Source of the DNA: a virus
Direction: 5' to 3' (one strand)
Length of the DNA stretch: 22,707 bases
IMG/VR virus record: IMGVR_UViG_3300030389_002306
Location: 21,032-43,738 of that record
In this document: one piece after another, positions 1 to 21,255 of the stretch
Position numbering within the stretch: position 1 is the first letter of the stretch
Layout of the letters: each line of letters begins with the position of its first letter
Made by a program: the position numbers and the translations under genes
The notes under the pieces: generated by a model
Told to the model about the DNA's origin: nothing
Seen by the model: only the letters and a program-made list of their open reading frames with translations
Databases searched by the model: none

Positions 1-3000
1 CCTGATAATCTTCTAGTAAATTAGTCTGCACTCTAGCCTCTTGTCCTAGTGGACTAATCTTCGTTGTACCTGGTACATTACCAATATGTGCGTAGTTTAA
101 ATATATAGCGTCACCATCTAAATCAGCACCCATAACATGTGATACTCTTGATGGTATAGCTATTGTAGATCTTGCACCATCTACACCCTCAGCTGCAAAA
201 CCTTTAACAACAAACACTACAGACGATTGTTTACCGTGTGCAGGTATACGTGTGCCTAATACTAAATCACCTACTTTAATACCATCTTTCTTTGCAGATG
301 CAGGTATTATAGCTTCTGACACCACAAAGTCTTTACCTTGTTCTATTAATGCATTAAGATTATTTTTATACTGTTGTCCTGATACTTCATCAACCAAGTC
401 AGATACTTTAATATATGACTTTAAATCTCTACCTATTGGGGATGTTTGATAAGCTATTGTACCGCCAAACATAGCCTTAGTTCCAAACTTAACAAGTCTT
501 GATGATGCTAACTGTTGCAACATCTTGTGCAACTGTGGATGTAGTCCTGGAGCATATTTTGATAATGATGTATTCAAATTACCAAAAAACTCTTCACCTA
601 TTAGTTTGCTTAAAAATTCTGTATCTTTTTGTCTTTGTTCAGTTGTAGACTTATCACTATATATAACATTACCACTTCTTTTTTGTTCAAAACCTACCAT
701 AGCTCTAGCTGCTAGCTCATGCATACGAGATACTATAGCTTCTTCTTCAGCTTCTAAATTAGTGTGATGATGTCCAAATAACTGTGATGGCATATGGAAT
801 GAATGTCTTTCTTTATCAAGTTCTACTTGTAAACCAAATCCTTCACCATTCACACCTGCCCAAGTTCCATCTACATATATATCATCTTGTCTTTCTACAA
901 CCTCATCTTCTGTAGTATTTTCTAAATCATATGTATATTGTTCACCACCTGCATATAATTTCAAAGCAGATTCAAAAGTTGCAATTGGAATAAAATCGTG
1001 TAACTGTCCTGTTACTTCTGGTCCAGGTATAAGTCTAGACTCACCTATACGTTCTTTTCTAGCTCTTAATATATTAGCTATCTTTTTAAGATACGGACTA
1101 TTTTGTTCCATTTCAGGAGTTATTTCATCTATCTTAAACTTAGCAAAAGTTCTTTTACCTATAAGCTTACTATTGTTAGTCTCAACATAATCATAAACAT
1201 GTTTGAATTGATTGCCAACCTTACGCATAGATCCAAACTTTTTACGAATTATTTCACCGTCACCAGGCAATACATATGCTTGTGCATCCGTTGCATTAAA
1301 TCCGTCAAAGTCTGTTACATCTTGAAATGCTACAAACTCTATAGGCGTATTACGATCGTGTGGCGTATGTCTTTTAATAGCTCCTTCTGCTCTTTTGATA
1401 TAATCTATCTCACTTTCACTTTCTTCATGTTTACCTATAAAAAATTCTTGTGCAAAAAATTTATTAATAGAATAGTTTAAAAGATAATTGTCTATTTCTC
1501 CTTGTTTTAACCTTTGCCCTTTTTCACCTATAAGTGTATTAAGCTTAATTTGATCTGGATCTTTTAGTAATTCTTTCTTAAACTTTTTAGCATATTGCTT
1601 TAGTCCTACTAAAGCTAAACCATCTTTCTTTTTAACTATCTTAAATGGATTAACTCTTTTACCATCTTTATATTTTACATCATTATAACCAGCATCTAAT
1701 GCCATTTGTAACAACCTTTGTCTTTGTTTAAGAGTTTGTGCAATAGGTGTACTAACATAGTATCTTCTTTTAGCTGCACCAAATACTGCTATAGGTTGAT
1801 CGTAGTATACTGTTTCACCTTTATTAAATCTAGATAGCGCATAAACAAAATCATTAAAGTCTGTAAGCATAAGCTCTTGACTATCCATCTTAACATATTT
1901 TCTGTTTCTACGCGCGTCTTGTTTTGCATTTTCAGGTGTGCTAAATACACCAGACAACATACTTATATTATGTTCTTTACCTGTTCTATCAGCCAACATT
2001 AATGCATATATATTACTATATCTACCTACATCTTCATTAATAAATCCTAAACCTTTCATTAATGAAATGTATGCGTCTATATTTTGTTGTGCTAAAGTTG
2101 CATAGTTTTCATTTTTATTATGCAATGAGTTTTCTTTATTAATAGTTAAGGTAGGGTTTTCTGCTACATCATTAACTTGTGTAATGTAGTTCTTAGCTCT
2201 TGATTGAACTATTAAATCGCCCAATAGTTTATTAAAACCACCTTTTATTTGTAACACACCACCTTGTACAAAATCACTTTGTCTTGATTGGAATAGTTGT
2301 TTTAATGAAGAATATCTTTTATTATCAAATGTGTATTGATTACCTGTTTCTGTAAGTTTTCTTTTATCAATAAATGCCCAATAAGGTGAATCACCATATA
2401 AAGATGTAAGCGCTTCTGCTATACCATTACCAGATTCAATAGCAGATATCATATCTCTTACTGTATTTCTATCTTCTTGTATTGTAGGTCTAAAGTATTT
2501 ATTAGCCTGTTTAGTTAGTGTAGATTGCCATCTGGCTTCATCTTTACTAAATGATATGCCAGGCACCCAAGTAGTTTGTTTATTATCACCTCTCATAAAC
2601 CCTACCTCTTTCATAGTTTCAATCTTTTTATTAGCAAAGTCAATAGACATTTCTAATAATAAAGCATCTACAAATGCATCTTTTTTAAGTTTAGATTTAA
2701 GAAACGCTACAAATCTAGCTACAGATGCATTATCACTATTAGTAACAGAATTTACAAATGTAAATACATCACGCTTTTTACTTTGTTGTCCTAGTGAATG
2801 TAGCTCAGATAATAAATCTTTTACATCTACAGGGTTCTTATCATTCTTTTTACTTTCTTCTATTGCATATGCTTGTATAAGCTTTGATGTGGTATCACCA
2901 AATAATGTTTCTTCTTGATCGTATATATTGCCTTTATCGTTTTCTTCTGCTACCTGCTCACTCTCTTGATTGAAACTAAATACTAATGAATCATCAGATC

Positions 3001-6000
3001 TTTCACCCTGATTAAGTCTAGCGTCTACAGATTGTATAAGCCCATCTACAACTCTTTGATATTCTGCAAAAGATAATCTTTCTACCTGTGCTCTAATCTT
3101 TCTAAGTAGATAGTCATGTTCTACAGATGTTACTTCAAATGGTGGAGTTTGTTTATCTGTATTATATGTTTTATTGTTTTGTTTATATATTTCTTTTGCT
3201 ATTTCTTGTACAGCATCTTCACCTCTGACACCTTTAGCTAATACTTTTTGTTCTATAATTCTAAACAATCCAACAGTAGATATAGCATCAAAGCTAGCTT
3301 GCTTTAACATAGTATTTTTGCTGTAAGAGTTTTGTTTAAACTTATTGTCTTTGTTTAATATATTAAAGTTTCTTTGAACATAAGTCATAGCTTCATCAAA
3401 GTTCATTAATCTAACTTCAGGCAAAACTTTGTCTAAAACAGACTTACCTGCATCTTTATCAGCTAAATTAAATATACGTTTATACATACGCTTTAATAAA
3501 CTATCATAGTTATTAGCATCTGTTTTATTATCTATAACATTTCTAATACCTCCACGTTTATTAAACTCTTCGTTAGAATATGCAAATGCTTCCTCTAATA
3601 ATCCATATTGTGATTTATCTTGTAATCTTTTTATATCACCTCTTTGTGATAAATATGAAAATAAAGATTGCGCTGCATTTTTATATGCAATAGTATTGCC
3701 TGATTCCGATGATGTTTCTATAGTATCTAACAGTTGAGATAAAGCATCATCTATTGTTGCTCTTTCTTGTTTTCTTAAATCATTTAATATATCACCACCA
3801 GTTACAAATTTTTTACCTCTTTTATATCTTGTAAGTAAAGGATAACTATATTGAATATTTTCTATTAAACCCTCAATAGATCCTCCTGGTGTAACTATTC
3901 TTCTTTTAATTAATAAAGAATTAAGACGTTTTTGTATTGGAGTTCCTGCTATTGATTGGTAATATGGATGTGATAGCTCATGTATCAAATCCGTTTGCAT
4001 AGCTTTTCTTGGATTTACTATAATTGTACTTGCAAAAAATACAGCAGATGCAGGTGCGCCAAACCCTTCTATAACTTGTCTATTTGTAAATGTAATATTT
4101 TTACCAGGAAATTTTTCTTCTAAAGCTGAACGTAAATATCTTTTAATAAAAAATGCATCTTCATCTACTCTTTCAAGATATGATCTAGCAGGTTCTTTAT
4201 CGTTAGTATCTTTTCTTTTTGGAGTTTCTCTACTAAACTCACTACTTTGATCTAAAAGACTTTGATTGTCTGTATTGTCTTCTGCAGTTGTTTCTTGTTT
4301 TACAGATTCTTCTACTACTTGTTTTGTTGGTCTTTTACTTTTTTTTTTAACCTTTTCTGTTCTAGCTTTTACTTTTTCTGTAGCTTCATCAAGTTTTTCT
4401 TTACTCTGATCTGCTAATTTTTTACCTTTTTCTACAACCTTTTTAGCAGTATCTTTTGTTTTATCAATTAAAGAATCTGCTATATTTACCACAGTTTCTG
4501 TAACAGTTTTATCTTGTAATTTTTTTTCTACAAAAGTTGTAAATTGTTCTAAAACTTTACCAGATGCTCCAACTAAATTAACTTTTTTTATTTTCTGTAT
4601 TATTTCTTTAGCTTTAGTTTTTACTTCTTCTGCTGATGGAACACGCTCACCAAATATTTCTCTTGCTGCACTTATTTCTTTTTCTAATGCTTCAGATGTT
4701 TTTGGTGCATTTTGTTTTAAATACTTTTTAGCAAAGTTTTTACCTTGATCAAATTGTTCTTGTAAGAATGTACGTAGATTTTGTGCAGGTTGACTTTTAA
4801 TAGTTTCTTGTGCTTTTTCTTGTGCAAGACCTAATGCATCTCCAGTAGCTTTAACTACACCTTTTTCTCTTACAGCCTGTACGCCTTTTTGTACACCTTC
4901 TTTAACTGCTTGCGCCCCTTTCTTTACAGTATCTACTACACGTTGTACTACTGGAGCAGGTTGTTCAATGCCTTCTGTAGTAAACTCTCTAAACTGTTTA
5001 GGCGTTAATCCTATAGATGATCTTTTAACATTACCATCTTTTCTTAGTTTACCTGCTCTTAATGAAGCTATATTAGTAATTAACTCTTCATTAGCTTGTA
5101 TTTGTTCTTCTTGCAATTGAACAGCAGCGTCATGCTCTAAATTAGTTAATTCAATTTGTTCTGCTAATATTTCAGGTTTATTTTTAATAGTTTCATTATG
5201 AAAATCTATTTGTTCTTGTCTTTGTTTGTTTATAGCCTCAATACTTATTTGAGCTTCTGCTATTTCCATACGAGCTAAAAATATTTGTCTTCTACCTGCC
5301 TGACTAAGAGAGTTATCTTTATAAGTAGTTCTATATATATCTTCAGCTTGTTCTATTGCAGCAATAGCTTCTTCTCCAAAAAGCTCATCCATTTGTCCTT
5401 CAGCAACCATTCGTTCTACCCTTGATTTTGCTAAGGCTGCATTACCGTTGCTATCTATAACAGTATAAGCTATATACTCTAATCTATTTCGTTGTGCTGC
5501 ATTAAACTTATTTCTATCTAAAAACTCTCCAAGTCTTGTTTCAGCTTCTTGTAATTGATACGATCTTTCAGCTATAGCATCTACATAACCCCCTCTAGAA
5601 CCCATAGCTAAACCTAAAGCAAAAGCACTTACTCGTGTTTGTAACATTTCATCACTTTTGAAAAAATCACTAAAAGTAACAAAATCTTCACCTTTTTGAT
5701 CTGCAATAGCTCTACCTTTTATCCACTCTTGATAAACTTCCTGGTATTGTTCAACCACACCTTCAGTAACACCTGTAGCACCTGCTTGTACAAAAGGCAA
5801 TATTTTTTGTCCAAAGCTAGCTTGTTTTGGTATATTTCTTAAACCTGCTGTTAGTCTACCTAGTCCACCAAACACTAAACCAAATTGAGCTATATCTGCT
5901 GCAATCCAATTAGTATTATCTCTCCATACTTGTGATGCTGCAGCTTGAGCTTCTTGTGGTGTTAATCCATCAGCTAAAGCTTGCTGTAAGGTTTCTCCTG

Positions 6001-6913
6001 CTACAAAAGCGCCTTCTGCAAAGTTACCACCAATACCACCACCTATAGCTGATGCAATAATGTTTGGAGTTTTCTTTAAGTTTTCTACTACAACCTTTTC
6101 TCCCTTTAATACTCCTTTTTGTTTAGCTAATTTTCTACCAGCTTTTACAATCTTTGGTTGATATAATCTATCTGCAATACCAAATGCTGATGCAGCTCTA
6201 TATGCTTTAGTTGAGTTAAGCATTATTCTTGTTGCAGTAGCTGCTGCACCTGCAGGTAAAAAGAATGACATAGAATATGGTAAAAGCTTTGCTACATCAG
6301 TAGCCCAAAATCTTGGATCTGCTAATTGATTCCAGCCTACAGATTTCATTTCTTCAGGAATAAATGTAGTATTAGCATTCATTATATCTGAACCTTTTCT
6401 TTGTAAGAAATCACCTATAGTGGTTTGTTGATCTACATCTTCATCCCATGGCGTTACAACAGCTTTAAGATATTCAAAAGTATCTCCTGTGCCCTGTATA
6501 AGTTGCCCTGTACCTGCAGCTAAACTTCTTGATAACATTGATTCAGATCCTGTAGCATCAGCAGCTGCAGCACCTAAACCTATACCAGTAGCTAGACCTA
6601 ATGGACCACCTAGTGCACCACCTATAACACCACCAGCTACAGTAAATGCATCTTGTGGTGAAACAATAGGTGCTAATGCGGCATTAGGATCAATACCTAC
6701 ACCAGTTGACTCTAAACCCAACTGTTGTTTTTGAATTTCACTAGTTTGTCTTTGTGCGAATTGTTGTCCAGCATATTGATCTAAAGCTTCGTTGCGCTCT
6801 GCATCTTGATTAGCAATGCGCTGTAAAAAAGATTCTATACCTCCCCCAGCAGTCATTCCCTGGTCATACTCATTAATAGCCTCTTCTGGTGTATTATTAT
6901 TTAAGTCTGCCAT
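1..6913 (-). CDS. Giant virion protein: membrane segments, HELSH metallopeptidase-like domain and crAss-type virion RNA polymerase (C-terminus cut by window edge)
   Basis: The frame is open from the ATG at 6913 to the window edge (2304 codons, no stop). Seen: glycine-rich hydrophobic segments near residues 88-120, 206-229, 284-305, 334-352 and 426-445; long helical/coiled-coil stretch about 450-620; Lys/Glu-rich linker to about 880; HELSH (978-982, HExxH zincin motif) with a candidate third ligand in LLEEAF (E1107/E1108). Further on are TDAQAYV (about 1875-1881), RIPAHGKQS (2222-2229) and GADLDGDAIY, with catalytic-type aspartates D2264, D2266 and D2268. Known: the DxDGD loop of the beta'-like double-psi barrel binds Mg2+ in multisubunit RNA polymerases and in QDE-1/RDR-like enzymes, including the packaged polymerase of crAss-like phages. 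TDAQA probably belongs to the beta-like barrel. Inferred role: ejected with the genome, perhaps processed by its own protease, and transcribes early genes. The start overlaps the upstream stop as TAATG. Polymerase call strong, peptidase likely, membrane role tentative. Confidence 0.85.
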   Translation of the reverse strand, partial: MADLNNNTPEEAINEYDQGMTAGGGIESFLQRIANQDAERNEALDQYAGQQFAQRQTSEIQKQQLGLESTGVGIDPNAALAPIVSPQDAFTVAGGVIGGALGGPLGLATGIGLGAAAADATGSESMLSRSLAAGTGQLIQGTGDTFEYLKAVVTPWDEDVDQQTTIGDFLQRKGSDIMNANTTFIPEEMKSVGWNQLADPRFWATDVAKLLPYSMSFFLPAGAAATATRIMLNSTKAYRAASAFGIADRLYQPKIVKAGRKLAKQKGVLKGEKVVVENLKKTPNIIASAIGGGIGGNFAEGAFVAGETLQQALADGLTPQEAQAAASQVWRDNTNWIAADIAQFGLVFGGLGRLTAGLRNIPKQASFGQKILPFVQAGATGVTEGVVEQYQEVYQEWIKGRAIADQKGEDFVTFSDFFKSDEMLQTRVSAFALGLAMGSRGGYVDAIAERSYQLQEAETRLGEFLDRNKFNAAQRNRLEYIAYTVIDSNGNAALAKSRVERMVAEGQMDELFGEEAIAAIEQAEDIYRTTYKDNSLSQAGRRQIFLARMEIAEAQISIEAINKQRQEQIDFHNETIKNKPEILAEQIELTNLEHDAAVQLQEEQIQANEELITNIASLRAGKLRKDGNVKRSSIGLTPKQFREFTTEGIEQPAPVVQRVVDTVKKGAQAVKEGVQKGVQAVREKGVVKATGDALGLAQEKAQETIKSQPAQNLRTFLQEQFDQGKNFAKKYLKQNAPKTSEALEKEISAAREIFGERVPSAEEVKTKAKEIIQKIKKVNLVGASGKVLEQFTTFVEKKLQDKTVTETVVNIADSLIDKTKDTAKKVVEKGKKLADQSKEKLDEATEKVKARTEKVKKKSKRPTKQVVEESVKQETTAEDNTDNQSLLDQSSEFSRETPKRKDTNDKEPARSYLERVDEDAFFIKRYLRSALEEKFPGKNITFTNRQVIEGFGAPASAVFFASTIIVNPRKAMQTDLIHELSHPYYQSIAGTPIQKRLNSLLIKRRIVTPGGSIEGLIENIQYSYPLLTRYKRGKKFVTGGDILNDLRKQERATIDDALSQLLDTIETSSESGNTIAYKNAAQSLFSYLSQRGDIKRLQDKSQYGLLEEAFAYSNEEFNKRGGIRNVIDNKTDANNYDSLLKRMYKRIFNLADKDAGKSVLDKVLPEVRLMNFDEAMTYVQRNFNILNKDNKFKQNSYSKNTMLKQASFDAISTVGLFRIIEQKVLAKGVRGEDAVQEIAKEIYKQNNKTYNTDKQTPPFEVTSVEHDYLLRKIRAQVERLSFAEYQRVVDGLIQSVDARLNQGERSDDSLVFSFNQESEQVAEENDKGNIYDQEETLFGDTTSKLIQAYAIEESKKNDKNPVDVKDLLSELHSLGQQSKKRDVFTFVNSVTNSDNASVARFVAFLKSKLKKDAFVDALLLEMSIDFANKKIETMKEVGFMRGDNKQTTWVPGISFSKDEARWQSTLTKQANKYFRPTIQEDRNTVRDMISAIESGNGIAEALTSLYGDSPYWAFIDKRKLTETGNQYTFDNKRYSSLKQLFQSRQSDFVQGGVLQIKGGFNKLLGDLIVQSRAKNYITQVNDVAENPTLTINKENSLHNKNENYATLAQQNIDAYISLMKGLGFINEDVGRYSNIYALMLADRTGKEHNISMLSGVFSTPENAKQDARRNRKYVKMDSQELMLTDFNDFVYALSRFNKGETVYYDQPIAVFGAAKRRYYVSTPIAQTLKQRQRLLQMALDAGYNDVKYKDGKRVNPFKIVKKKDGLALVGLKQYAKKFKKELLKDPDQIKLNTLIGEKGQRLKQGEIDNYLLNYSINKFFAQEFFIGKHEESESEIDYIKRAEGAIKRHTPHDRNTPIEFVAFQDVTDFDGFNATDAQAYVLPGDGEIIRKKFGSMRKVGNQFKHVYDYVETNNSKLIGKRTFAKFKIDEITPEMEQNSPYLKKIANILRARKERIGESRLIPGPEVTGQLHDFIPIATFESALKLYAGGEQYTYDLENTTEDEVVERQDDIYVDGTWAGVNGEGFGLQVELDKERHSFHMPSQLFGHHHTNLEAEEEAIVSRMHELAARAMVGFEQKRSGNVIYSDKSTTEQRQKDTEFLSKLIGEEFFGNLNTSLSKYAPGLHPQLHKMLQQLASSRLVKFGTKAMFGGTIAYQTSPIGRDLKSYIKVSDLVDEVSGQQYKNNLNALIEQGKDFVVSEAIIPASAKKDGIKVGDLVLGTRIPAHGKQSSVVFVVKGFAAEGVDGARSTIAIPSRVSHVMGADLDGDAIYLNYAHIGNVPGTTKISPLGQEARVQTNLLEDYQ
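4339..4348 (-). other. A10 homopolymer (possible slippage site) in the giant protein's linker
   Basis: On the coding strand this is GTT followed by ten A and then GT, read as Val-Lys-Lys-Lys-Ser around residues 855-859. Adding one A creates AAG TAA, an immediate stop. Removing one A leads to a TAG within about eight codons. Either slip would release a protein of about 860 aa with the hydrophobic and coiled-coil part but without the peptidase and polymerase. It is the longest homopolymer I noticed in the window. It may simply be a lysine-rich linker in AT-rich DNA. Confidence 0.35.
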
Positions 6914-8883
6914 TATTTAAAATATTTGCTCCAAAGTTTGAATCTTGTTTCTTTTTGTTTATAAAGATCTTTATTGTTTACTTTATAATAATCTAATAGT
7001 GCTGTTGGATTACCTGATTGATAAGCTTTAAATAAGCTTGGATCGTCTTTTGCAATACTACTAAAATTCCTTAATATATTATTGACATTTGTAGAAAAGT
7101 TAGCATTTTGATTTCTATCTTTTTGCACCAATGTAACTTGCTGTGCCATGTCAAATATATCAGCCATAATATAAGGAGTCATTCGATTGTGTATATCATT
7201 CATAGCAAAAGTAGCTATTGCTGTTGGCGCATGTTGTGCATAAAGAGTTTGTATTCCTATACCATCATCTGTTTTGTAAATATTATTAAGATTATTTAAT
7301 ACCCTTTCATCAAGATCAGCTCTTTTTCTATTTGTAATTTTTTCAGCTTCTATATTAGCTCTTGCATTTTTGCTAAATGATAATTTTTCATCATAGTTTT
7401 CATCTCTTAATGCAGATATAAAATAATCTTTACCTAGATTTAATTCGTGATAATATATATCATCTGCTAAAATATCAGGATCATTTAACTGCATTATATA
7501 TGCAGGCATAAATTTAACAGTTTCTTCTGCAGCTACACCTTCTAAAACTTTATTTATATATGTAGCTCTATCTGTTGGATCTAAATCTTTAACACCCTTT
7601 GTAAGTATTTTGCTTTTTAATTCTCCTGTAGCTTTATCTGTATATACAGCTTTCATGCCTAAGAATATACCATTTATTTCTAAATCATTAGCCATAAATG
7701 TTTCCATTAATCCTACATCACCTTTCATTGATGCACCTTTATAATTATAAGACTCTTCTAAGAATGCTTCATCAAAATTAATTTTTAATTTACCACCTCT
7801 TGAGCTATACAGTTTATCGCCTAAATAAGCTTCTAAAACTCTATATTTAGTTTTGTCATCTGTAGCAAACAATTCATAAGCAACATCTGCTATAACACTT
7901 TCTTTAGATTCTAAATTTGTTAATGCATCAGACGCATCAAAATTAGATTGGAAATATGCATCCAAACCTTTTTTGCTTTTTATATAAGAATTTACACCAC
8001 CATAGTCTTGTAAATCAGCTGCACGCACCCCACTACCCATAGTAAGCTGTTGAGCTTCAAGCAATTCATCAGGTAATGTTGTTTCTATATTTTTTGTTCC
8101 AAACTTAATAGGTAAAGGATCACTTATATCTATTCCTAATCTTTGTTTTAAATATCCTGAAGTTACTATTTCTTCTGGGTTATGTAATGCTCTATCATGA
8201 AGCAATCTTTCATTAGCTTTATCTAATCCCATAGTAGAAGCTACATAATAAGCATAGTCTGCTGCTAAAGTTTCTTTATTGGCTAATACATAATCTATTT
8301 CTTCAATGCGTTTATTAAGAGGCTCTTCATCTATAAATGATAGATCTATAGGTGCATCTAAATGTCCTCTATATTGTATAACATCTGTTTCGCCTCTATG
8401 CCAAGCATCTATAGATTTTAAATCACTTAGTGGAAATAAATTAGCAGTTTCAGGATTGCTTATTGCTTCAAAATACTTTGCGTAATTTGCTGTATTTTGT
8501 TTCATTTGCACAACCTTTTCATTATTATTTAGTTTAAAAGCATAAGCTTTTAAGTCTGCATCAATACCTAATCTTTTAGCTTTTTGATAACCACCTGCTC
8601 TTCTAATTTTTTCATTAATAGGCTCTAATAGACTTTGTGATAATTGTTCAAATTCTAATACATCTTTAGGTCTAGCATGATCACCTGTAATAGAATCATA
8701 AGCAGCTTGATACGCTGTATTAATAATGTTTTGTGAATTTTCTGCATCACGCTGCTCTAATAATTGTTGTCGTTCTTGTGATTTTAATATACTATCTAAA
8801 TATCTTAACTGCTGTTGTTTGTTAGATTTTATATTACTAGATCCTAGAAATCCACTTAATGCGTTATATCCAAATGCGTCCAT
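6913..8883 (-). CDS. Probable internal virion (cargo) protein, all-helical
   Basis: This 656-residue protein has no domain I can name with certainty. It looks almost entirely alpha-helical and charged. It has a Gln-rich start (KQQQLRYLDSILKSQERQQL, about residues 22-41), no signal peptide, and no clear transmembrane segment apart from a short Gly/Ser/Leu N-terminus. A segment near residues 70-180 has the helical, N/K-rich pattern I associate with the ejected cargo proteins of crAss-like phages, encoded between the tail muzzle and the polymerase; this resemblance is from memory and weak. Context supports it: the gene lies directly upstream of the virion RNA polymerase gene and just after the virion lysozyme gene, with 1-nt TAATG overlaps on both sides, so the products are probably made in matched amounts. 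No catalytic motif is evident. The function is inferred from position only. Confidence 0.7.
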   Translation of the reverse strand: MDAFGYNALSGFLGSSNIKSNKQQQLRYLDSILKSQERQQLLEQRDAENSQNIINTAYQAAYDSITGDHARPKDVLEFEQLSQSLLEPINEKIRRAGGYQKAKRLGIDADLKAYAFKLNNNEKVVQMKQNTANYAKYFEAISNPETANLFPLSDLKSIDAWHRGETDVIQYRGHLDAPIDLSFIDEEPLNKRIEEIDYVLANKETLAADYAYYVASTMGLDKANERLLHDRALHNPEEIVTSGYLKQRLGIDISDPLPIKFGTKNIETTLPDELLEAQQLTMGSGVRAADLQDYGGVNSYIKSKKGLDAYFQSNFDASDALTNLESKESVIADVAYELFATDDKTKYRVLEAYLGDKLYSSRGGKLKINFDEAFLEESYNYKGASMKGDVGLMETFMANDLEINGIFLGMKAVYTDKATGELKSKILTKGVKDLDPTDRATYINKVLEGVAAEETVKFMPAYIMQLNDPDILADDIYYHELNLGKDYFISALRDENYDEKLSFSKNARANIEAEKITNRKRADLDERVLNNLNNIYKTDDGIGIQTLYAQHAPTAIATFAMNDIHNRMTPYIMADIFDMAQQVTLVQKDRNQNANFSTNVNNILRNFSSIAKDDPSLFKAYQSGNPTALLDYYKVNNKDLYKQKETRFKLWSKYFK

Positions 8884-10982
8884 TAGTTCCCTGTGTTTTG
8901 ATTATTCTGTGTATTTGTATTATACAATTGCGTACCATATATGTTATATAAATTTGGATTCTGTATACCAAACATATTAGGTGTTTGCAAAGGCAGAATA
9001 GAGTTATTAGCCATATTATTAGTTATCATATTTTTATATTTTCTAATAATAGGATTTAACTGTGCATCTGCTTGTTTTTGTTGTAATGTTTGAAATACTT
9101 TTTGTGCAAAATTAGATGCACCTTGCTGTCTGCTTATTTCAAGTTTTAACTCGTCAGCTCTTTCTGCCTTAGATTTATTTAAGTTATATTCTTCTGCAAA
9201 AGATAAAGCTTTAGAATATGAATCTAAATTTCTTCTATTTAGTTCTGCATCTTTAGCTGCAAAATCTAATAACGCAGATTGTCTTCTACTATCTAATACT
9301 CCAGACATAGCTAGAAATTTAGCCCTATCACCAGCAGTACCTCTAACTGCATTTTCAATACCTTTACCATATGCTCCATCTATTTCAGCTCTAGCTTTTT
9401 GTGCTTCTTCTACACTAAAACCCATTTTAGAAAGCTGTCCTAATTGATTCATATGTTCTTTATACATATTAGAAAGATCAGGTATTTTACTAGGTTTAAT
9501 AGTTTTTAAAGATTCCATATATGCGCGCTTACCTAAAGCTGCTAACTCTAAATCTTCTTTATTGTTTACTAAATTTCTTACCTCTTCCACTATCCCTAGC
9601 CCTTGTTCTAACACTTTACCTAAATCTCCAAGAGTATCCATATAGTTAGTTGTAGATACTTTTTCATATGGATCTTTGTCTGTAGCTGCAGGATTAGTAA
9701 AATCAGGATCTAAAAAATTAGGAACAGTATCGCCATCTGCATCATTAGGATCTATGTCTTGCGTTATATCTGTATCCTCAGAATCTTTTACACCATCACC
9801 ATCTTTATCACCTTCTTTGTTTTGTTGTTCATTTATAAAGTTTTGTAAATTTCCATCTGCTTCAGGATCTAAATCTAATGGCGTAGGATCTACAAGTTTA
9901 TTTCTATCAAAATCATCAGGATAACCATCATCTTTAATAGTTATATCTATTTTATTTGGATCAAACTCTTGTACTGGTGGTAATGCATTAGCACTATAAT
10001 TTTCATCATATATAATAGTACCATCTTCTATTAGTTCTACTAACTTTTCTTCATTGAATGGTAATTTTTTTAAATATATATGATTAGCTACATCGCCTCC
10101 CGCATGTTTTCTTATTTCAGATTTATATGAGGTTTCAGGTAATGCAAAAAACTCTCCGTCTTTTTTAAAGACATAATAGTTTCTATTACCCATTGTTAAT
10201 ATTTTACCGTCCTCAAAATCTACAGATGGCTCTTCTTCATTAATCTCTTCTAATTCAGATTCTGCATCTTCTAACATTTCTGTTGTGACTCTTGTATCTT
10301 CTTCTTCTTTAATAACTGCTTCTGCTTGCTCTGAAAGCTTTTGCTGTCTTTCAACATCTGCAGCTACATTAACTTCTAAATTTGCTCTTTTTATAGGTAT
10401 TTGATCAAAGCCACCCTCACCATTAGGTACAGATATATAATCTTTTGCATTTACTTGCATTATCGTAGCATCTGGACCATAATAATTTTGATACTCTTCG
10501 AGTGATTTTACTTGTAAATCAGGCTCACCATTCGTATTTCCTGGCAAATCTAATTCATCTATATTACTTAAACCATCAACTCTTTTTTTAATAGCTTCTT
10601 CTGATTGATCTGCTGGTTTTTCAAAATCTAACATAAAAGCCCTTGTAGAATCAGATACAGAATCAAAAGTAGTATTTAAATATTTTTGTGCTTCTGCTTC
10701 TTGTAATGCAAAATCTATTTGTCCTTTCCAATTAGTTTTCCAATCAGGCACAGCTTTAAGAAATGCTTGTTTTCTTGCAGGAAAGGTGTGTTGAAACAAT
10801 CCTATTCCTTTATTCTTCATATCTCCTATCTCTACAGCATCTACATAAAACTGTGATTCTGCTTTTATATTTGCTATAATGCCAAGAGCTTTAGTCTCAG
10901 TCATTTTAGGTTTAGTCATTAGATAATCGAATATCTCAGCAGGATGAACTACTACATTTCCTATGTCTGATAATTTAGCCAT
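8883..10982 (-). CDS. Virion-associated lysozyme (phage tail lysozyme-like domain) with calcium-type repeats and helical C-terminus
   Basis: The protein has 699 residues. Residues about 15-130 match the pattern of the phage tail-lysozyme family: IIANIKAESQF, with the likely catalytic Glu42, then GIGLFQHTFPARKQAF, then a conserved-looking Trp/Gln segment (WKGQIDFALQE). Such domains cut peptidoglycan glycan strands during genome entry. The middle is very acidic. Residues 392-428 contain DKDGDGVKDSEDTD followed by DADGDTVPNFLDPD, resembling thrombospondin type-3 calcium-binding repeats. The C-terminal 260 residues are helical and end in an Asn/Gln/Tyr-rich tail (about 655-699). There is no signal peptide, so delivery from the virion fits better than a secreted endolysin. 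Its position among internal protein genes, joined by TAATG overlaps to both neighbours, agrees. The lysozyme assignment is from motif reading, not from a database search. Confidence 0.75.
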   Translation of the reverse strand: MAKLSDIGNVVVHPAEIFDYLMTKPKMTETKALGIIANIKAESQFYVDAVEIGDMKNKGIGLFQHTFPARKQAFLKAVPDWKTNWKGQIDFALQEAEAQKYLNTTFDSVSDSTRAFMLDFEKPADQSEEAIKKRVDGLSNIDELDLPGNTNGEPDLQVKSLEEYQNYYGPDATIMQVNAKDYISVPNGEGGFDQIPIKRANLEVNVAADVERQQKLSEQAEAVIKEEEDTRVTTEMLEDAESELEEINEEEPSVDFEDGKILTMGNRNYYVFKKDGEFFALPETSYKSEIRKHAGGDVANHIYLKKLPFNEEKLVELIEDGTIIYDENYSANALPPVQEFDPNKIDITIKDDGYPDDFDRNKLVDPTPLDLDPEADGNLQNFINEQQNKEGDKDGDGVKDSEDTDITQDIDPNDADGDTVPNFLDPDFTNPAATDKDPYEKVSTTNYMDTLGDLGKVLEQGLGIVEEVRNLVNNKEDLELAALGKRAYMESLKTIKPSKIPDLSNMYKEHMNQLGQLSKMGFSVEEAQKARAEIDGAYGKGIENAVRGTAGDRAKFLAMSGVLDSRRQSALLDFAAKDAELNRRNLDSYSKALSFAEEYNLNKSKAERADELKLEISRQQGASNFAQKVFQTLQQKQADAQLNPIIRKYKNMITNNMANNSILPLQTPNMFGIQNPNLYNIYGTQLYNTNTQNNQNTGN

Positions 10983-11971
10983 TAATCCATATTATTTTTT
11001 TTCCATTTATCATGATTCTTTTTGATCATATCAATTATGGATTTATTACTCATTTTACTATCATATTGATCCTCTATGTGATCATATATACCTGAGCCTG
11101 GCTCAGCTTTCATGCCTGTGCTTTTACCCATTTTATCCATTATAGTTCCATCCTCTGCAACAGGTAATGGGTTTGTTTTATGGCTAGCTTCACCTGGAGT
11201 TATATTTTTATCTTTTACTTGTGATCTAAATATCTCTGCAGCTTTATCATCTTGGCCTTTAGCCATAGCATCTCTCATCTCATCTTCTTTATTGTTTACA
11301 AGTTCACCGCCTGTAAACTCTGCAATAACCTCTCCTTTGCCTCCCTTTTCTCCTTTAGCAACTTTATCATCTGGTATATCAGGATAGATTTGATCTAGCA
11401 TATTATCTGCAAAATTTTGTGCTTGATTAGTGTTAGCTAAATCATTTTTATTAATAGGACCATTAAACATTACATTTTTAAAAAACTCATTTGCAGATTC
11501 TATACTAGGTCTTCTATAATTTTTTATAGCACCCATATAGTCATTATTTAATACTGCATTAAAAAAATCTTCATTTTTATCTCCAGTTAAATGATAATTA
11601 GATAGTATAAATTGATTCTTAATAGGTAAGCTTTCAAATACTTTGCCTTTACTCTCTACATATTTTTTTGCAGATTTCTCAGATTTAACTAAATCATTCT
11701 TAAATAGTTCTTTAATACCATCTACAGTTAATGCTGGCAAATCTTTTTTCTTTTGCTTAGCATCATCTAAATTATTAAACTTACCTACAATTGAATAACC
11801 TTGTTTTACAACAAATTTACCATCATCTGTTTTTTGTATAAATGGACTGACTGTACCGTCTGTATTAAATCCTTCTTTTTGTGGATTTATCATACCCATT
11901 ACAGTCTGTAAGTATCCTGGCTGTAGTTGTTGTTTTAAAAATCTATTTATTATTTGTTCTGGCCCTTTCAT
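10982..11971 (-). CDS. Internal virion protein with possible degenerate T4-lysozyme-like (GH24) domain
   Basis: The protein has 329 residues. Residues about 30-165 follow the layout of T4-type lysozymes. E33-G34 sits where the catalytic Glu-Gly would be. A TDDGKFVVKQGY stretch stands where the D-x-x-G-x-x-T-I-G-x-G loop would be. Next come LTVDGIKELFKNDL and a helix pair ending NDYMGAIKNYRR, like the 'alpha-lobe' of that fold. The Asp position is shifted and the catalytic Thr position appears to be Val, so activity is doubtful. The C-terminal third carries VIAEFTGGELVNNKEDE (about 213-229) and ITPGEASHKTNPLPVAEDG, then a Lys-rich tail. I have an impression, unverified, that similar Gly-Glu-Leu and ITPG motifs recur in internal proteins of Bacteroidota phages. 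The gene lies between the membrane-active protein and the virion lysozyme, with 1-nt overlaps on both sides. The fold call is tentative; a real protein is near certain. Confidence 0.6.
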   Translation of the reverse strand: MKGPEQIINRFLKQQLQPGYLQTVMGMINPQKEGFNTDGTVSPFIQKTDDGKFVVKQGYSIVGKFNNLDDAKQKKKDLPALTVDGIKELFKNDLVKSEKSAKKYVESKGKVFESLPIKNQFILSNYHLTGDKNEDFFNAVLNNDYMGAIKNYRRPSIESANEFFKNVMFNGPINKNDLANTNQAQNFADNMLDQIYPDIPDDKVAKGEKGGKGEVIAEFTGGELVNNKEDEMRDAMAKGQDDKAAEIFRSQVKDKNITPGEASHKTNPLPVAEDGTIMDKMGKSTGMKAEPGSGIYDHIEDQYDSKMSNKSIIDMIKKNHDKWKKNNMD

Positions 11972-13542: not shown

Positions 13543-16500
13543 TTAATTGTAGGATTTACGGTATTTAGCCATTATTGCAAATATATTAAATTTTTCGGTA
13601 GTTCTTGCAGATAAAGTAGCCTTCATATATGTTCCAACAACTCTTTGCTTTGACTGTTCACTACGCAAAGGTATTCTTAATACACCTTCTCTATACTTGT
13701 GTAATGTCTGATTGAATTGTGTAGTTGATGGATAACCTGGAGTATTGGTAGTACTGATTCCAATTGTTGTTCTTGGAAATGATTCAGATTCGAATTGTAG
13801 GTCCTCAAAATACATTGAAGAATTTAAATTTTCTTCATCTCTTCTAACAACTTTTGTAGTAAGATCTGGATTTGTTAAATATGCTAAAATATTATTAGAC
13901 AAATTTTGTTTAGACTTAACTGTGACTACTACATTTAAATTATCAAACTTTTTATTTTCTCCAGGCGCATCAGTTATAACTTTTTCAATATATGATTTAT
14001 GTATAATTCTTCTTGCCAATTCTTCTTGATTGTTAAAATCATATATAGGATAAGCATTTGTTCCATATTCATCATTAGCATACGCCACATCTTGATCAAT
14101 TGGATTGTGTAATTTTTCTTGACCAAAGAAACGTGTTTTTTCATCAGCAGCATCCCACTCCCATAAAGTCAAATTACCTTCTGATAATTCATGTGTGCTA
14201 AACCTATATCCTGACATATTAGCTCCTGTTGGTCCATATACACCAGTTAAACCTTGACCAAAATTATTATTTGAATTTCTAAATCCATCTTCATAGCCAT
14301 TTAGATCATCACCTGGATCATTAAAATATTGCCCCCATGGTAACTGAGATTGTGGCGTATATAATCTACCATTATGCTCTATCCATTGTTGTGGATAAAC
14401 ACTATATTTAGAAATTACAGCATTTATATCTTCATTGTACGAAACAGTAGTACTTGTTATAGTTTTTTCTGGAAAGATACCTGTTTCTATTAACCCTTCA
14501 TACATTGGATCAATGCCTAATATTTGCCCTTCATTATTGGTATATAAATATTTACCATTTGGATGTAGCACTGTATCTTTTGCATCAATTCTAATTCTAT
14601 CTGCAAAAGTCATATAAAGCGTATTTGAAGAATAATCAAATGCACCATGTATACCAACAAAATACAAAGGCATATCGCACATACTTACTCTTATAGCATC
14701 ATAGAATCTTTGTTCTGTTTTTAATCTTCCATATGATACAGCTTTTTCAAATAAATCTCTTGTTCCTAAATCATCAGATATACTTACAAGTTTTTTATCT
14801 GATCCATACTTTAATAGCTTAGCATATCTTATATCAAAGAAAAATAAATTACGTTCACTTGCTACAACGCTATGCATGTGTTTAGTACCATACTTAATGG
14901 ATATATATTGATGCGATTCGATTGTATCACCAGATCCTGTAAATATAGAATCAACACCAGATGTATCTTGTAAAAATGTTCTAGGATTTACTAATAACTG
15001 ACCAAATGCATTTTCTTGGAAAAAGTGTATTTCATTTTGAAAATTAATGATTCTATTAATTTGTCCATATATAGCTTCAACATCATAAAAGTTGAATATT
15101 GGAAATATTCTAAATGCATCTGTTTGTTCACCAGATAGTTTTGTTTTAGAGTAGGCTATTTCTACAGGCAAATCAGTATACTGCTGTTCATCATCTTGTA
15201 ATGATAAATAGCTTTTAAGATTGTTCTCTTGAGAGTATACATCATTGTAAAACCAATCATTACTAAATGGTGGATTATTTTGATCAAAACCTTCTACGTG
15301 GTCATTAGCAGCTAGATGCAAACCACTTCTCATTTCAGTATTAACAAATGACTCACATGGGAATACAACCCATTTAGAAAAACTTTTTTCTGGATATGGT
15401 GATGTTGTCATTTGATGTGAATACAAACCAACAAATGTATCTCCACCCAAGACTGTAGTATGATGTTCTAATGTGTCTATATTAATAGGATGAAAATTAC
15501 CCGCATTTACCCATCTAGTTTTTTGTATTGCTTCTAATGAATCTCCACCATATTGAGCATCATTGAATCTATATATATTAGCATAGTAATAATATGGTTG
15601 TGCTACAGCTGAATGAGCGCATACCAAACCATCTGATTCTATGAAAGGCTTAGATGATTTATTCCACAAATAACTTTGCCCTCGTATTATTTGCATAACA
15701 TCAGGCATATGCATCATTTGTTTATTAGTATTAATAAGTATTGCTCTCGTACCCATTTGCAAAGTTGATACAGTTTCATAGGCTAAATCAACACCTTCTG
15801 TATCTGTTATTTTTCCATACATCCAAGTATGACCATATGTATTTGGTGCATATAAATATCTAGCTCCCAATGAAAAATTTGAAAACCCTCTTTTTTCAAT
15901 ATACCATTCTTTTCCTCCATTTTCTTCACTAACAAATTGTGTAAAAAAATCTTTTGGAACAAATTCACCTTGACCTATTTCCTTTGCATTTTCTATAGCA
16001 GAATTATATGCAAAACTAGGACGACTTACAGGTGATTTTACACCAGACAAATTTATATTGTTAAATGAAGCGTCTGGATTAGTTGAGCCACTAAATGCAG
16101 TAGAACTATCTGCAAAAAGAGTTGGATCGGTGACATCGTTAAAAAAAGCATTTTCATAATTATTCACACCATTTATAGAAACATATAACTGTGTTGTATA
16201 TCCACTGCCATTATAAGTAGGATAATTTCTAATATACGGCTCATAATATGTATCTAAAACAGCGCATTTAGCTACCATAACACCAGACTCATTATCTTTA
16301 GTTATTTTTTTAGTAGAAAATATTAAACCTTGATCTCTTTGATTATCAGCATTTCCTAAAGCTTGATACTGTAAAGAACTTTGTGAACCTTCCAACATAG
16401 TAGTAAAATTGCCAGCAGTATCAGAGTCAAAAGATAAAATGCCAGACCAACTGTCAAATCCATGTGCACTACTAGGAGCTATAAATGTTCCATGCTCTTG

Positions 16501-19308
16501 AAGATCGTTATTATTCATCCTTTCTTCATTATACAGCTTTAGTATACTTACCCATTGCAATTTATCTTCACCAGAAAATGCATATGGTCTAATACCAAAT
16601 GTACTATCTGGACTATACATAAGCCCTGCCCTTGCTTGTGTATGTACATCTATAAATGGTTCAGTACTAGAGTTTGAGGTTGGATGGAACATTTTACCAT
16701 ATGATCCAAACTCTCCACTACCAGCTCCATATATATTTTTAAGAGTTTTTGGATTGCTTTCAGATTCATTTAAAAATCTTGGTTTACCATCACCATCTTT
16801 TACTACTACACTATTAGATCCAGCATTAACACCAGCATATCCATTTAAAACTCTATCGTAAATTTCATCCGTATTTTCAGCTACAATAGATGCAGTATCA
16901 CCAGCTTGTACCTTTTCCGCTCCAATACCGCCATCAAAGCTAGTGCCTTTTCCTTTTACATATCCATGAGATAGTTCTGATCTTCCATAATTACAAACTT
17001 GATTTACTAATCCTGACTGAATAATAGTTCTATCTGATTCAGTTCTTTCAGCTCTTACTACTCTAAATCCTGATATTTTTTCTCTTACATGTGGCGGTAT
17101 TTTAAAGGTAAAATCAATTGCTAAATCTAATGTATAATGATAACCTGATTCTCCTGGACCTGCACAAAAACCATACATCTGCGGAGATACATTTGTAGTA
17201 TAGTTTGTAGATCCGTGATATACAACATCTGCTAAATGCGCCATATCATATCCAAAGTCAAAACTACTTGTATCATATTGCACACCATGACCAGGAACAG
17301 GCATATCAGTATGTGCACTTATTCTATAATCTTGTGCGTATGGATTTTCTCTCCATTTAGTTCTATCGTTTGTAGCATCTCTACCTAATTCAGTATTTTT
17401 TAAATCAAGCTCCCAGGCTTTATCATAATGATTTGGCATTTTAATATCACCTATCCATAATACATTACCAGGATCACCATTTTTATCATACACTAATACA
17501 CCAAATCTATATGTTTCACTTCTTTGATAACCTCTCTTATTACCTGAAGCATGGGGATCTTTATTAGATCCAATTGTAAAACTAGCAGTATATTCTGTAT
17601 CAACATTATTATTATCTCCATCAGCACCTGCTAAATTGTCTGTTTGTATTGATGGATTTGTTACATTGGTAGATATAAATTCTGTTTGTGAACTATTTAC
17701 ACCACCTCTATTGTTTCTTGTATCTGATATTTTTGGTATTTGTCTAAAAGAAAACATACACCCACCCAATCTATTTGTTTCCTCACCAGCATAATATGCA
17801 TAGCTTACACCTCCCAATATTCTTCTTGATCTACCATCTGCATCTACATTAGGAGCAAATTTTTCATTACCCCAAAGACAAGTACCTTGCGTGGGTAAAT
17901 ATCTGTGTTCACTTGGTATGTTGTATCCTATATATGATGCTTGAACATATGAGGTTGCGCTACCAGCTTCTACCACATTATCAGGACTGTATTGACTAGA
18001 AGATGGATGATAATAATCTTTTACAGCAGAATCTGTTGTTGTTAATGATCCACCAGAAGGTATTGCAGTTCCACTTAAAGTAGTTTCATCAAGTTTATAT
18101 CTTAAAACTTTTACATTCCATTCTTTTTCAGTAACAAAATTTCTTTTTTGTCTTAGGTTTGCAGCAAATAATACATTGTCTTTTATTGCAATGTCTTTAC
18201 AAACATCCCAAGTATTTGTTGGAATTAAAATGTTTTCTACACCATTTTCAATTACAGTAGTTAAAGTTGTATGTTTAAATTCTATTTGTGCATCAGCCAA
18301 AATATTTTTTGTGGCTACTTCTGATACTTGAGGAACAGCTCCTAAAGAATTGTAATATACAGCATATATTGTAATAGCATCAAACCTTGTATCTAAATTT
18401 GTTATTTTAAGTAAAAAACCATCATTAGATAAAGATCCTGGTGTACCTCCATAATATGTAGCAGAACTTGCACTACTTGTATTAGATATATGATAAATAT
18501 TACTTAATGGTGATATTCCTGATTCTGATCCAGCATCTGTTATATATTTATAACAGTATTGATATACACCAACTGGCAACGAACCACTAATTGTGCTTTT
18601 TAATGCTATTTGATTATGTGTTGCCTTTGGAGTAATATCCAACTCTGAAGGATTCATTGTGTGAATATCAGGATCATTTAATGAAAATGTTCTTAATGGA
18701 TTTTTATTATCTGTCCAATATATTCTTGATATTGCATCATTCTCTATTATACCCTCAACTCTACATTTAATAAATGGATGCATGTTAAGATTAGGAAATT
18801 CATTAGTTCCTGAAACAGGATTATACGCTACCCTTAAATCTATAAATTTTTCTACCTCACCTTCACCATTAAAAACTATTTTAAAAAAAGCTGTTCTAAA
18901 ATCACCAGTCGATTGTGATCCATTTGCATTTCCATAAAATATATAACCACAAACAATAATTACTAATTCATTTCTAAATGAAAAATGACCAACTATATTA
19001 GCGGCTTGTGACATTGGCTGACCATCAATTCCTGTTGGTCTAAAGTCTGTACCTGCAAAGTATGAACTTGAAAATCCTGAAACTTCATTGCCATCACCTG
19101 AATAAGAAGCAGGAAATGTTTTATCAAATTCATGTAGATCTACTACCTTTCTATTGCCATTAATATTTTCTATGGTAAATGTAGTGCCATCAGTATTGAC
19201 TACCCTAACATTCATGGCATCTCTATATGATCCTTCTAATTGATAGCGTGGATCTACATCGGTAATTAAACCTTTACTAAAACCTTTAGGTGCGCTTTTT
19301 TGTGACAT
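13543..19308 (-). CDS. Tail muzzle / stabilisation protein, crAss-like type (1921 aa)
   Basis: The N-terminus is diagnostic: KGFSKGLITDVDPRYQLEG, then SYRDAMNVRVVNTDG and IENINGNRKV (residues 8-52), the form of the 'stabilisation' proteins (P22 gp10-like by fold) of crAss-like and flavobacterial podoviruses. The rest is beta-rich with many Asn, Ser, Tyr and Gly, as expected for repeated propeller or sandwich domains. A segment reading FFQENAFGQLLVNPR, GTKHMHSVVASERNLFFFD and FDYSSNTLYMTF (about residues 1420-1575) again matches the pattern of that family. In crAss-like virions this protein forms the distal part of the short tail (muzzle) below the rings. No signal peptide or membrane segment is seen. 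It overlaps the upstream ring-protein stop by 1 nt (TAATG) and directly abuts the next gene. It is by far the longest complete gene here and has no frame interruption. Confidence 0.85.
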   Translation of the reverse strand: MSQKSAPKGFSKGLITDVDPRYQLEGSYRDAMNVRVVNTDGTTFTIENINGNRKVVDLHEFDKTFPASYSGDGNEVSGFSSSYFAGTDFRPTGIDGQPMSQAANIVGHFSFRNELVIIVCGYIFYGNANGSQSTGDFRTAFFKIVFNGEGEVEKFIDLRVAYNPVSGTNEFPNLNMHPFIKCRVEGIIENDAISRIYWTDNKNPLRTFSLNDPDIHTMNPSELDITPKATHNQIALKSTISGSLPVGVYQYCYKYITDAGSESGISPLSNIYHISNTSSASSATYYGGTPGSLSNDGFLLKITNLDTRFDAITIYAVYYNSLGAVPQVSEVATKNILADAQIEFKHTTLTTVIENGVENILIPTNTWDVCKDIAIKDNVLFAANLRQKRNFVTEKEWNVKVLRYKLDETTLSGTAIPSGGSLTTTDSAVKDYYHPSSSQYSPDNVVEAGSATSYVQASYIGYNIPSEHRYLPTQGTCLWGNEKFAPNVDADGRSRRILGGVSYAYYAGEETNRLGGCMFSFRQIPKISDTRNNRGGVNSSQTEFISTNVTNPSIQTDNLAGADGDNNNVDTEYTASFTIGSNKDPHASGNKRGYQRSETYRFGVLVYDKNGDPGNVLWIGDIKMPNHYDKAWELDLKNTELGRDATNDRTKWRENPYAQDYRISAHTDMPVPGHGVQYDTSSFDFGYDMAHLADVVYHGSTNYTTNVSPQMYGFCAGPGESGYHYTLDLAIDFTFKIPPHVREKISGFRVVRAERTESDRTIIQSGLVNQVCNYGRSELSHGYVKGKGTSFDGGIGAEKVQAGDTASIVAENTDEIYDRVLNGYAGVNAGSNSVVVKDGDGKPRFLNESESNPKTLKNIYGAGSGEFGSYGKMFHPTSNSSTEPFIDVHTQARAGLMYSPDSTFGIRPYAFSGEDKLQWVSILKLYNEERMNNNDLQEHGTFIAPSSAHGFDSWSGILSFDSDTAGNFTTMLEGSQSSLQYQALGNADNQRDQGLIFSTKKITKDNESGVMVAKCAVLDTYYEPYIRNYPTYNGSGYTTQLYVSINGVNNYENAFFNDVTDPTLFADSSTAFSGSTNPDASFNNINLSGVKSPVSRPSFAYNSAIENAKEIGQGEFVPKDFFTQFVSEENGGKEWYIEKRGFSNFSLGARYLYAPNTYGHTWMYGKITDTEGVDLAYETVSTLQMGTRAILINTNKQMMHMPDVMQIIRGQSYLWNKSSKPFIESDGLVCAHSAVAQPYYYYANIYRFNDAQYGGDSLEAIQKTRWVNAGNFHPINIDTLEHHTTVLGGDTFVGLYSHQMTTSPYPEKSFSKWVVFPCESFVNTEMRSGLHLAANDHVEGFDQNNPPFSNDWFYNDVYSQENNLKSYLSLQDDEQQYTDLPVEIAYSKTKLSGEQTDAFRIFPIFNFYDVEAIYGQINRIINFQNEIHFFQENAFGQLLVNPRTFLQDTSGVDSIFTGSGDTIESHQYISIKYGTKHMHSVVASERNLFFFDIRYAKLLKYGSDKKLVSISDDLGTRDLFEKAVSYGRLKTEQRFYDAIRVSMCDMPLYFVGIHGAFDYSSNTLYMTFADRIRIDAKDTVLHPNGKYLYTNNEGQILGIDPMYEGLIETGIFPEKTITSTTVSYNEDINAVISKYSVYPQQWIEHNGRLYTPQSQLPWGQYFNDPGDDLNGYEDGFRNSNNNFGQGLTGVYGPTGANMSGYRFSTHELSEGNLTLWEWDAADEKTRFFGQEKLHNPIDQDVAYANDEYGTNAYPIYDFNNQEELARRIIHKSYIEKVITDAPGENKKFDNLNVVVTVKSKQNLSNNILAYLTNPDLTTKVVRRDEENLNSSMYFEDLQFESESFPRTTIGISTTNTPGYPSTTQFNQTLHKYREGVLRIPLRSEQSKQRVVGTYMKATLSARTTEKFNIFAIMAKYRKSYN

Positions 19309-20784: not shown

Positions 20785-21255
20785 CTATGTAGTTTTTAAT
20801 TTGCTTATTTCTTTTTTAAAATTGCCCAAAGGCATTATTTTACATTTACTATATTTTTTTGGTCTTACCCAAACTATTTTGTGATAGTAATCATCTAATA
20901 TTGGAACTTTGTATTTAACAAGTTTACCTTGACTATTAGATTCATTAATATCAATTCGATAATGAAATGCTCTGCTGTGTTCTTTTTTGTCTAGGTACAC
21001 ATAACCAAAATCACAAGGCAAATGCACAAGTTCATTTCGATGCACTACATCTCTTATCAATATTTCAAAAAACTTTGAAACAACTGCATAATATGTTTTA
21101 TAATCCAGTTTGTTTCTTCTATATTCTTTTTTTCCCTTTAGCCACTCCCCTTTAACCGTTACATTTTCCCTAACATTTTTAAATATGTCACGAGCGTTTT
21201 CGTACTTGTCTCTGTGCTTTCGACTGAATAATTTTTGTACTATCTCTTTCATCAT
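20785..21255 (-). CDS. Small basic protein, possible IHF/HU-like DNA-binding protein
   Basis: This 156-residue protein is very basic (many Lys and Arg). The middle reads TYYAVVSKFFEILIRDVVHR, then a VHLPCDFGYVYLDKK strand pair, then a long basic arm with Tyr and Lys. The order 'amphipathic helix, short turn, LP-x-x-G-x-hydrophobic strand' is that of IHF/HU-type DNA-binding proteins. crAss-like phages encode IHF-like subunits in their structural block, which fits this location between a ring protein and the muzzle. The proline-arm tip of classical HU (R-N-P) is not visible, so the assignment is tentative. The first 22 codons overlap the 3' end of the preceding gene by 68 nt. Two ATGs stand side by side, so initiation could be at codon 1 or 2. 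No later in-frame ATG would give a credible shorter protein. Confidence 0.6.
   Translation of the reverse strand: MMKEIVQKLFSRKHRDKYENARDIFKNVRENVTVKGEWLKGKKEYRRNKLDYKTYYAVVSKFFEILIRDVVHRNELVHLPCDFGYVYLDKKEHSRAFHYRIDINESNSQGKLVKYKVPILDDYYHKIVWVRPKKYSKCKIMPLGNFKKEISKLKTT

Follow-up and report, generated by a model that had tools for sequence, protein, structure and literature searches.

A predicted zincin-like metallopeptidase domain was located on the same chain as a giant crassvirus-type RNA polymerase, directly behind a hypervariable linker and ahead of the catalytic core. By structure and origin, the domain is very probably a metallopeptidase, and its motif recurs at the same place in divergent relatives of the chain. 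The chain is encoded in the window, which is the whole stretch of 22,707 nucleotides of viral DNA that was analysed (IMG/VR record IMGVR_UViG_3300030389_002306, positions 21,032 to 43,738).

Metallopeptidase-like domain

The coordinates of the domain were re-read on the minus-strand chain, and HELSH, IIVNPRKA and LLEEAF were present where the initial annotation had placed them (Table 1). HELSH was the sole HExxH motif in the 2,304-residue chain, with about 0.02 such motifs per chain expected by chance from its composition. The downstream glutamate was located about 130 residues past HExxH. LLEEAF had been put forward as the source of the third zinc ligand, with either of its two glutamates as the candidate. 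This was borne out for one of them. E1107 was rejected as a zinc ligand, being replaced by aspartate in several relatives (the HENFH group), and E1108 is the likelier third ligand because it was invariant. The linker of about 265 residues showed blocks of only 2-24% identity, with 40-64% of the residues being K, E, Q, R, D or S.

Table 1. Features of the giant chain and of neighbouring genes, with positions in the window
Feature	Position	Strand	Basis
Giant RNA-polymerase chain, residues 1-2304	2..6913	-	frame without stop, open at 3' end
N-terminal module, about residues 100-620	5054..6616	-	
Hypervariable, charge-rich, low-complexity linker, about residues 640-905	4199..4996	-	directly ahead of metallopeptidase domain
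Predicted zincin-like metallopeptidase domain, residues 905-1150	3464..4201	-	37-sequence alignment, AlphaFold2 pLDDT 80
IIVNPRKA, residues 964-971, hydrophobic segment ahead of catalytic helix	4001..4024	-	strand by pattern
HELSH, residues 978-982	3968..3982	-	H978, E979, H982 invariant in 37 sequences; model helix
Y1024	3842..3844	-	invariant in 37 sequences
Q1102, first residue of Glu helix motif	3608..3610	-	invariant in 37 sequences
LLEEAF, residues 1105-1110	3584..3601	-	
E1108, predicted third zinc ligand	3590..3592	-	invariant in 37 sequences; model helix
DLDGD, residues 2264-2268, catalytic motif of beta-prime-type double-psi-barrel RNA polymerase	110..124	-	
Neighbouring gene, 656 aa, cargo protein likely by position	6913..8883	-	no family match
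Neighbouring gene, 699 aa, phage tail lysozyme domain PF18013	8883..10982	-	
Virion protein, 1,921 aa, crassvirus 'stabilization protein' match (crAss001 gp44 position)	13543..19308	-	

Giant chain, gene neighbourhood and polymerase identity

The record was affiliated with the crAss-like phages because its TerL, portal, major head and large stabilization proteins matched crassvirus families. The gene order beside the chain, including the cargo candidate with the PF18013 lysozyme domain, resembled the crassvirus cargo block. The open frame of the chain is cut off at the edge of the window by a scaffold gap. This gap, ten N at record positions 21022-21031, ended one base before window position 1, and the frame resumed beyond it as an ORF of 1,363 aa in the 64,742-base virus record. 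The polymerase is thus incomplete in the window, and the break in its gene is an assembly gap only. In complete relatives, a single uninterrupted ORF spanned 3,645-3,774 aa; HELSH was located around residue 1000 and D[LM]DGD around residue 2300. The DxDGD motif was therefore on the same ORF as the HExxH domain, which agrees with the initial annotation of a protease and an RNA polymerase on one chain.

The polymerase was identified by its catalytic region. With hhalign, the DxDGD region matched crAss001 gp50 with a probability of 89% (pair E 2e-6) and crAss002 gp33 with a probability of 87%; blastp also tied it to p-crAssphage gp44. The best match of the polymerase profile to a solved structure was 8h2n, the tail-fused polymerase of Thermus phage P23-45, which was centred on the catalytic motif and non-significant (E 0.1). 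Based on homology to crassviruses, the polymerase of this phage is presumably packaged in the virion.

Other parts of the chain also had counterparts. Part of the N-terminal module, about residues 100-450, showed 28-29% identity over about 350 residues to the chains L024 and L025, and L024 in turn matched phi14:2 gp078 (1.5e-7), p-crAssphage gp45 (3e-5) and also crAss001 gp49. Since both the N-terminal and the C-terminal parts match proteins encoded by adjoining crassvirus genes, the chain is best read, from these sequence matches, as a putative end-to-end fusion of two or three proteins that are separate in other crassviruses.

A tblastn search of GenBank phages with the chain and two polymerase parts of relatives gave no matches, so at the level of this chain the clade is absent from that collection. 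No relative was found in the scanned bacterial genome contigs. Outside the window, at record positions 10466-12343 on the minus strand, the record encoded a 625-aa repeat protein with a terminal T9SS type A sorting domain (TIGR04183, 27.3 bits, cut-off 23). This is a Bacteroidetes secretion tag and is unusual in a phage.

Conservation among relatives

Relatives were gathered from viral contigs using the zincin region and the polymerase motif as queries. Loss of HELSH in close homologues had been named as an observation that would speak against the domain; all 10 close relatives kept the motif. A survey of polymerase chains, as suggested by the initial annotation, covered 42 giant chains, none identical to another, and 41 of them carried HExxH or HExxxH. 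HExxH was present in 36 chains and HExxxH in five, and one chain, L096, had neither. In L046, L048, L087 and L089, HExxxH replaced HExxH, with the remaining conserved residues retained; the fifth chain, L088, is truncated and starts later. The forms seen were HELTGH, HEYGGH and HEFTGH, in which the last histidine has moved by one position. L046 and L048 were considered as chains devoid of HExxH and rejected as such, both carrying HExxxH.

The domain alignment comprised 37 members, 13-94% identical to the domain of the window. Only H978, E979, H982, Y1024, Q1102 and E1108 were invariant, a set that comprises the four residues a zincin requires and two more. Among five sequences of the window clade, residues 951-1000 formed the best-conserved 50-residue block of the 2,304-residue chain, with 76% identity, compared with at most 72% in the polymerase blocks inside the window. 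Two comparisons gave a dN/dS over the domain of about 0.26 and 0.21.

The exception is the giant polymerase chain L096:2969-14644, which comprises 3,892 aa and is a relative of L099. It has lost the HExxH segment and kept the E-bearing helix and the polymerase. The chain represents a natural test of whether the HExxH segment is dispensable. The loss of the segment in a chain that keeps its polymerase suggests that HExxH activity is not always needed.

Predicted structure and family searches

Zincin topology had been proposed as the point to examine by structure prediction. AlphaFold2 was run on residues 905-1150 with the 37-sequence alignment and reached a pLDDT of 80; an earlier run with 13 sequences was discarded, with a pLDDT of 57 and meaningless structure matches. 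Residues 972-1149 were mostly above 80 pLDDT. HExxH was located on a helix at 973-987 (model 69-83) and E1108 on a helix at 1103-1120 (model 199-216), with a mainly helical insert between them. Both motif helices were thus well predicted. The strand proposed ahead of the catalytic helix was not confidently recovered: the N-terminal stretch of about 65 residues mostly had a pLDDT of 49-65 and no strand was assigned. Zincin topology is regarded as a likely but putative feature of the domain.

Database searches provided few matches. Foldseek with the 37-sequence model against the PDB and viral models gave no match at E<=0.001, and VIA-align gave none above Z 4.4. The VIA-align row for 4l7a, a putative zinc metallopeptidase of Bacteroides, was within background (104 residues across model positions 29-246, Z 3.3). 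Scans of the chain and the 37 domain members with Pfam, PHROGs and NCBIfam assigned no significant family, the Pfam models of polyvalent metallopeptidases matched none of the 37 members at E<=0.1, and a profile search of PDB sequences with the domain returned chance matches only. Weak matches among the 37 members were single ones to Tox-MPTase2 (0.017) and Peptidase_M85 (0.047) in Pfam, and to the metallo-protease phrog_87 (0.023) in two members. The missing significant fold match and the upstream sheet, which was not modelled with confidence, count against the reading of the domain as an active gluzincin-type peptidase.

Comparison with other crassviruses

The order N-terminal module, HExxH domain, polymerase was common to the gene sets of p-crAssphage, crAss002 and crAss001 and to a Culoivirus chain. 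Where the modules are split over separate genes, the HExxH domain is directly followed by the break. In p-crAssphage (Carjivirus communis), KP06_gp45 ends with HESLH and is annotated as 'putative RNAP associated protein fused to zincin protease'. As in the window, this HExxH domain precedes the catalytic RNAP, encoded by the next gene, KP06_gp44, but the modules are on two separate chains and not on one as in the window clade. The spacing from HExxH to Glu is about 70 residues in p-crAssphage and 100-155 in the window family. Comparison of the window zincin with that of p-crAssphage, by way of the Intestiviridae set, gave an hhalign probability of 1%; one sequence family for both was not confirmed, and what they share is position and motif. 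In crAss002, gp32 carries HEGVH near its C-terminus and is encoded ahead of the polymerase.

crAss001 gp47 likewise has a HEAFH domain near its C-terminus, and the window-clade polymerase matched gp50. The parts differ from the window chain in being split over gp47, gp50 and gp49, with the polymerase genes adjoining gp47 on the opposite strand. The crAss001 zincin set matched the window zincin weakly, with a probability of 21% and HExxH in register. The HExxH-bearing gp47 as well as gp49 and gp50 are virion proteins according to mass spectrometry (PMC10172136).

A single chain was also present in Culoivirus americanus MT774380 (Suoliviridae), where gp_19430 (L119:2178-15833) comprises 4,551 aa and is annotated as 'hypothetical protein'. 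Like the window chain, it carries a HExxH domain (HEAFH) first and a virion polymerase, of the phi14:2 type, after it. Its zincin resembles that of crAss001 gp47 (2e-10) and not the window family, and its catalytic motif is DFDVD. This human-gut chain matched 6vr4, the phi14:2 polymerase, with 2e-57. Around DxDGD, it matched the window clade best in L047 (3e-5) and less well in the clade members L004 and L005 (0.002-0.003).

The Culoivirus chain thereby joins Cellulophaga phage phi14:2, whose solved polymerase PDB 6vr4 is GenBank gp077, to the window clade. The polymerase chain of phi14:2 differs in having no HExxH. The motif HEIMH is located in the N-terminal part of gp076 (L029:98-4363), which is encoded downstream, and this domain matched the Intestiviridae zincins with an hhalign probability of 94%. 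The upstream protein gp078 had no HExxH. A further virion protein of phi14:2, gp081 (L029:19461-21242, 593 aa), showed two HExxH motifs in addition to the crassvirus cargo-1 domain PF25725. The zincin domains of the window and of other crassviruses share position and motif, and their common descent is a plausible hypothesis.

Comparison with N4-like phages and polyvalent proteins

Virion polymerases of N4-like phages are described as always fused to a zincin-type domain (PMC5512222, PMC12633501). Coliphage N4 gp50 (Schitoviridae) is a giant packaged protein that, like the window chain, combines a polymerase with a HExxH zincin-like domain; the motif is HELVH at position 2228 of 3,500 residues. 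As a further parallel, a low-complexity linker joins its flexible N-terminal module (PMC12633501). The two chains differ in that the N4 polymerase is a T7-like single-subunit enzyme followed by the HExxH domain, whereas the window chain has a double-psi-barrel DxDGD polymerase preceded by it. No sequence relation of the window zincin to the N4 domain was detected (hhalign probability 8%).

The polyvalent proteins that phages and conjugative elements deliver also resemble the window chain, being multidomain chains with a HExxH or HExxxH metallopeptidase. HExxxH was described as a variant of these metallopeptidases by Iyer and colleagues, and self-processing was proposed for the domains (PMC5512222). 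The domain set of the window chain is that of the crassvirus polymerases and is unlike that of the polyvalent proteins.

Proposed function and alternative explanations

As the leading reading, somewhat short of an even chance, we tentatively propose that the domain is an active gluzincin-type zinc metallopeptidase that forms a module of the ejected crassvirus cargo and has its own chain or sibling cargo as substrate. In this mechanism, H978, H982 and E1108 would bind zinc and E979 would activate water. The domain would be an old module of the ejected transcription cargo, placed between an N-terminal ejection or associated module and the RNA-polymerase core, and would be packaged and ejected together with the polymerase. 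Cleavage in the own chain or in sibling cargo would probably occur at or near the adjacent flexible linkers, either in the head or during or after threading of the chain into the cell, and may free the polymerase from the N-terminal module. Catalysis is suggested by the general base E979 and all putative ligands, which are invariant across divergent sequences. Three observations favour the own chain or sibling cargo as the substrate: the hypervariable linker ahead of the domain, the gene break behind it in split sets and its constant place beside the polymerase. In nearly all lineages, the HExxH domain adjoins the polymerase core, and the gene break of split sets is the same spot at which self-cleavage of a fused chain would part the modules.

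Self-cleavage is weakened by phi14:2, in which the zincin-like motif is on the downstream chain gp076 and not upstream. It is also weakened by N4, the best parallel, where the virion polymerase is packaged unprocessed (PMC5512222) and no degradation was seen (PMC12633501). The N4 results point as well to a zinc-binding or zincin-like domain with a mainly structural role in packaging, in unfolding and refolding at the tail or in restraint of the polymerase, with proteolysis absent or vestigial. The HExxH-holding region of N4 is needed for encapsidation of the uncut chain (PMC5512222), and its HExxH-bearing C-terminal part inhibits the polymerase (PMC12633501). Retention of the E-bearing helix in L096, with HExxH lost, is also in line with a structural role. 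The absolute invariance of E979 and the three putative ligands suggests catalysis instead, and we regard a mainly structural domain as unlikely.

The invariant active-site residues would equally be expected of an active zinc metallopeptidase aimed at a host protein of defence, transcription or the envelope early in infection. Metallopeptidase effectors occur in other conflict systems, and polyvalent proteins have been suggested to act in the same way (PMC5512222). Entry together with the polymerase would bring the domain into the cell before any expression of phage genes. However, it stays beside the polymerase core and does not move freely as a host-directed effector might, which makes a host target a rather improbable explanation.

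A different metal enzyme at the HExxH site, such as an alpha-ketoglutarate-dependent HExxH oxygenase, is very improbable. HExxH is also a motif of such enzymes, a point made for the C1 domain of N4 (PMC12633501), and the fold searches were without a significant zincin match, but three features fit the metallopeptidase group better: the order of segment, HExxH and Glu, the occurrence of HExxxH forms and the polyvalent nature of the chain (PMC5512222). Chance occurrence of the motif in some unrelated helical region could be entertained for a five-letter match in one sequence taken alone, but is ruled out for practical purposes by the low chance expectation and by 41 of 42 divergent chains sharing the place and the companion residues.

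Novelty and biological significance

The initial annotation had presented the pairing of a metallopeptidase with a virion polymerase as the novelty. This is not supported, as the N4-like fusions and the p-crAssphage annotation were already on record and the deposited Culoivirus chain carries both parts. Zincin-like domains fused to packaged N4-like polymerases and a zincin beside the RNAP in crassviruses are established. To judge from the searchable literature, the combination of a zincin and a crassvirus-type polymerase on one chain across dozens of environmental lineages is new. So are the divergent zincin family, in which a long insert separates HExxH from Glu, its HExxxH members and the single natural loss of the motif.

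Crassviruses belong to the most abundant groups of phages. With its retention in 41 of 42 one-chain polymerases, the domain is a concrete candidate for the processing of ejected cargo and bears on how the giant crassvirus polymerases pass the tail and become active. Coupling of a protease to a packaged polymerase arose in the N4-like phages as well, where the polymerase is of an unrelated type and the two domains stand in reverse order, and this suggests a shared need. A more specific and doubtful proposal is that a separate, hitherto undescribed zincin family has been fixed in the one-chain crassvirus polymerases as an in-cis protease that releases a multisubunit-type polymerase from its ejection module inside the host. 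If true, these chains would be self-cleaving injected polyproteins, with switching from HExxH to HExxxH and occasional loss of the motif.
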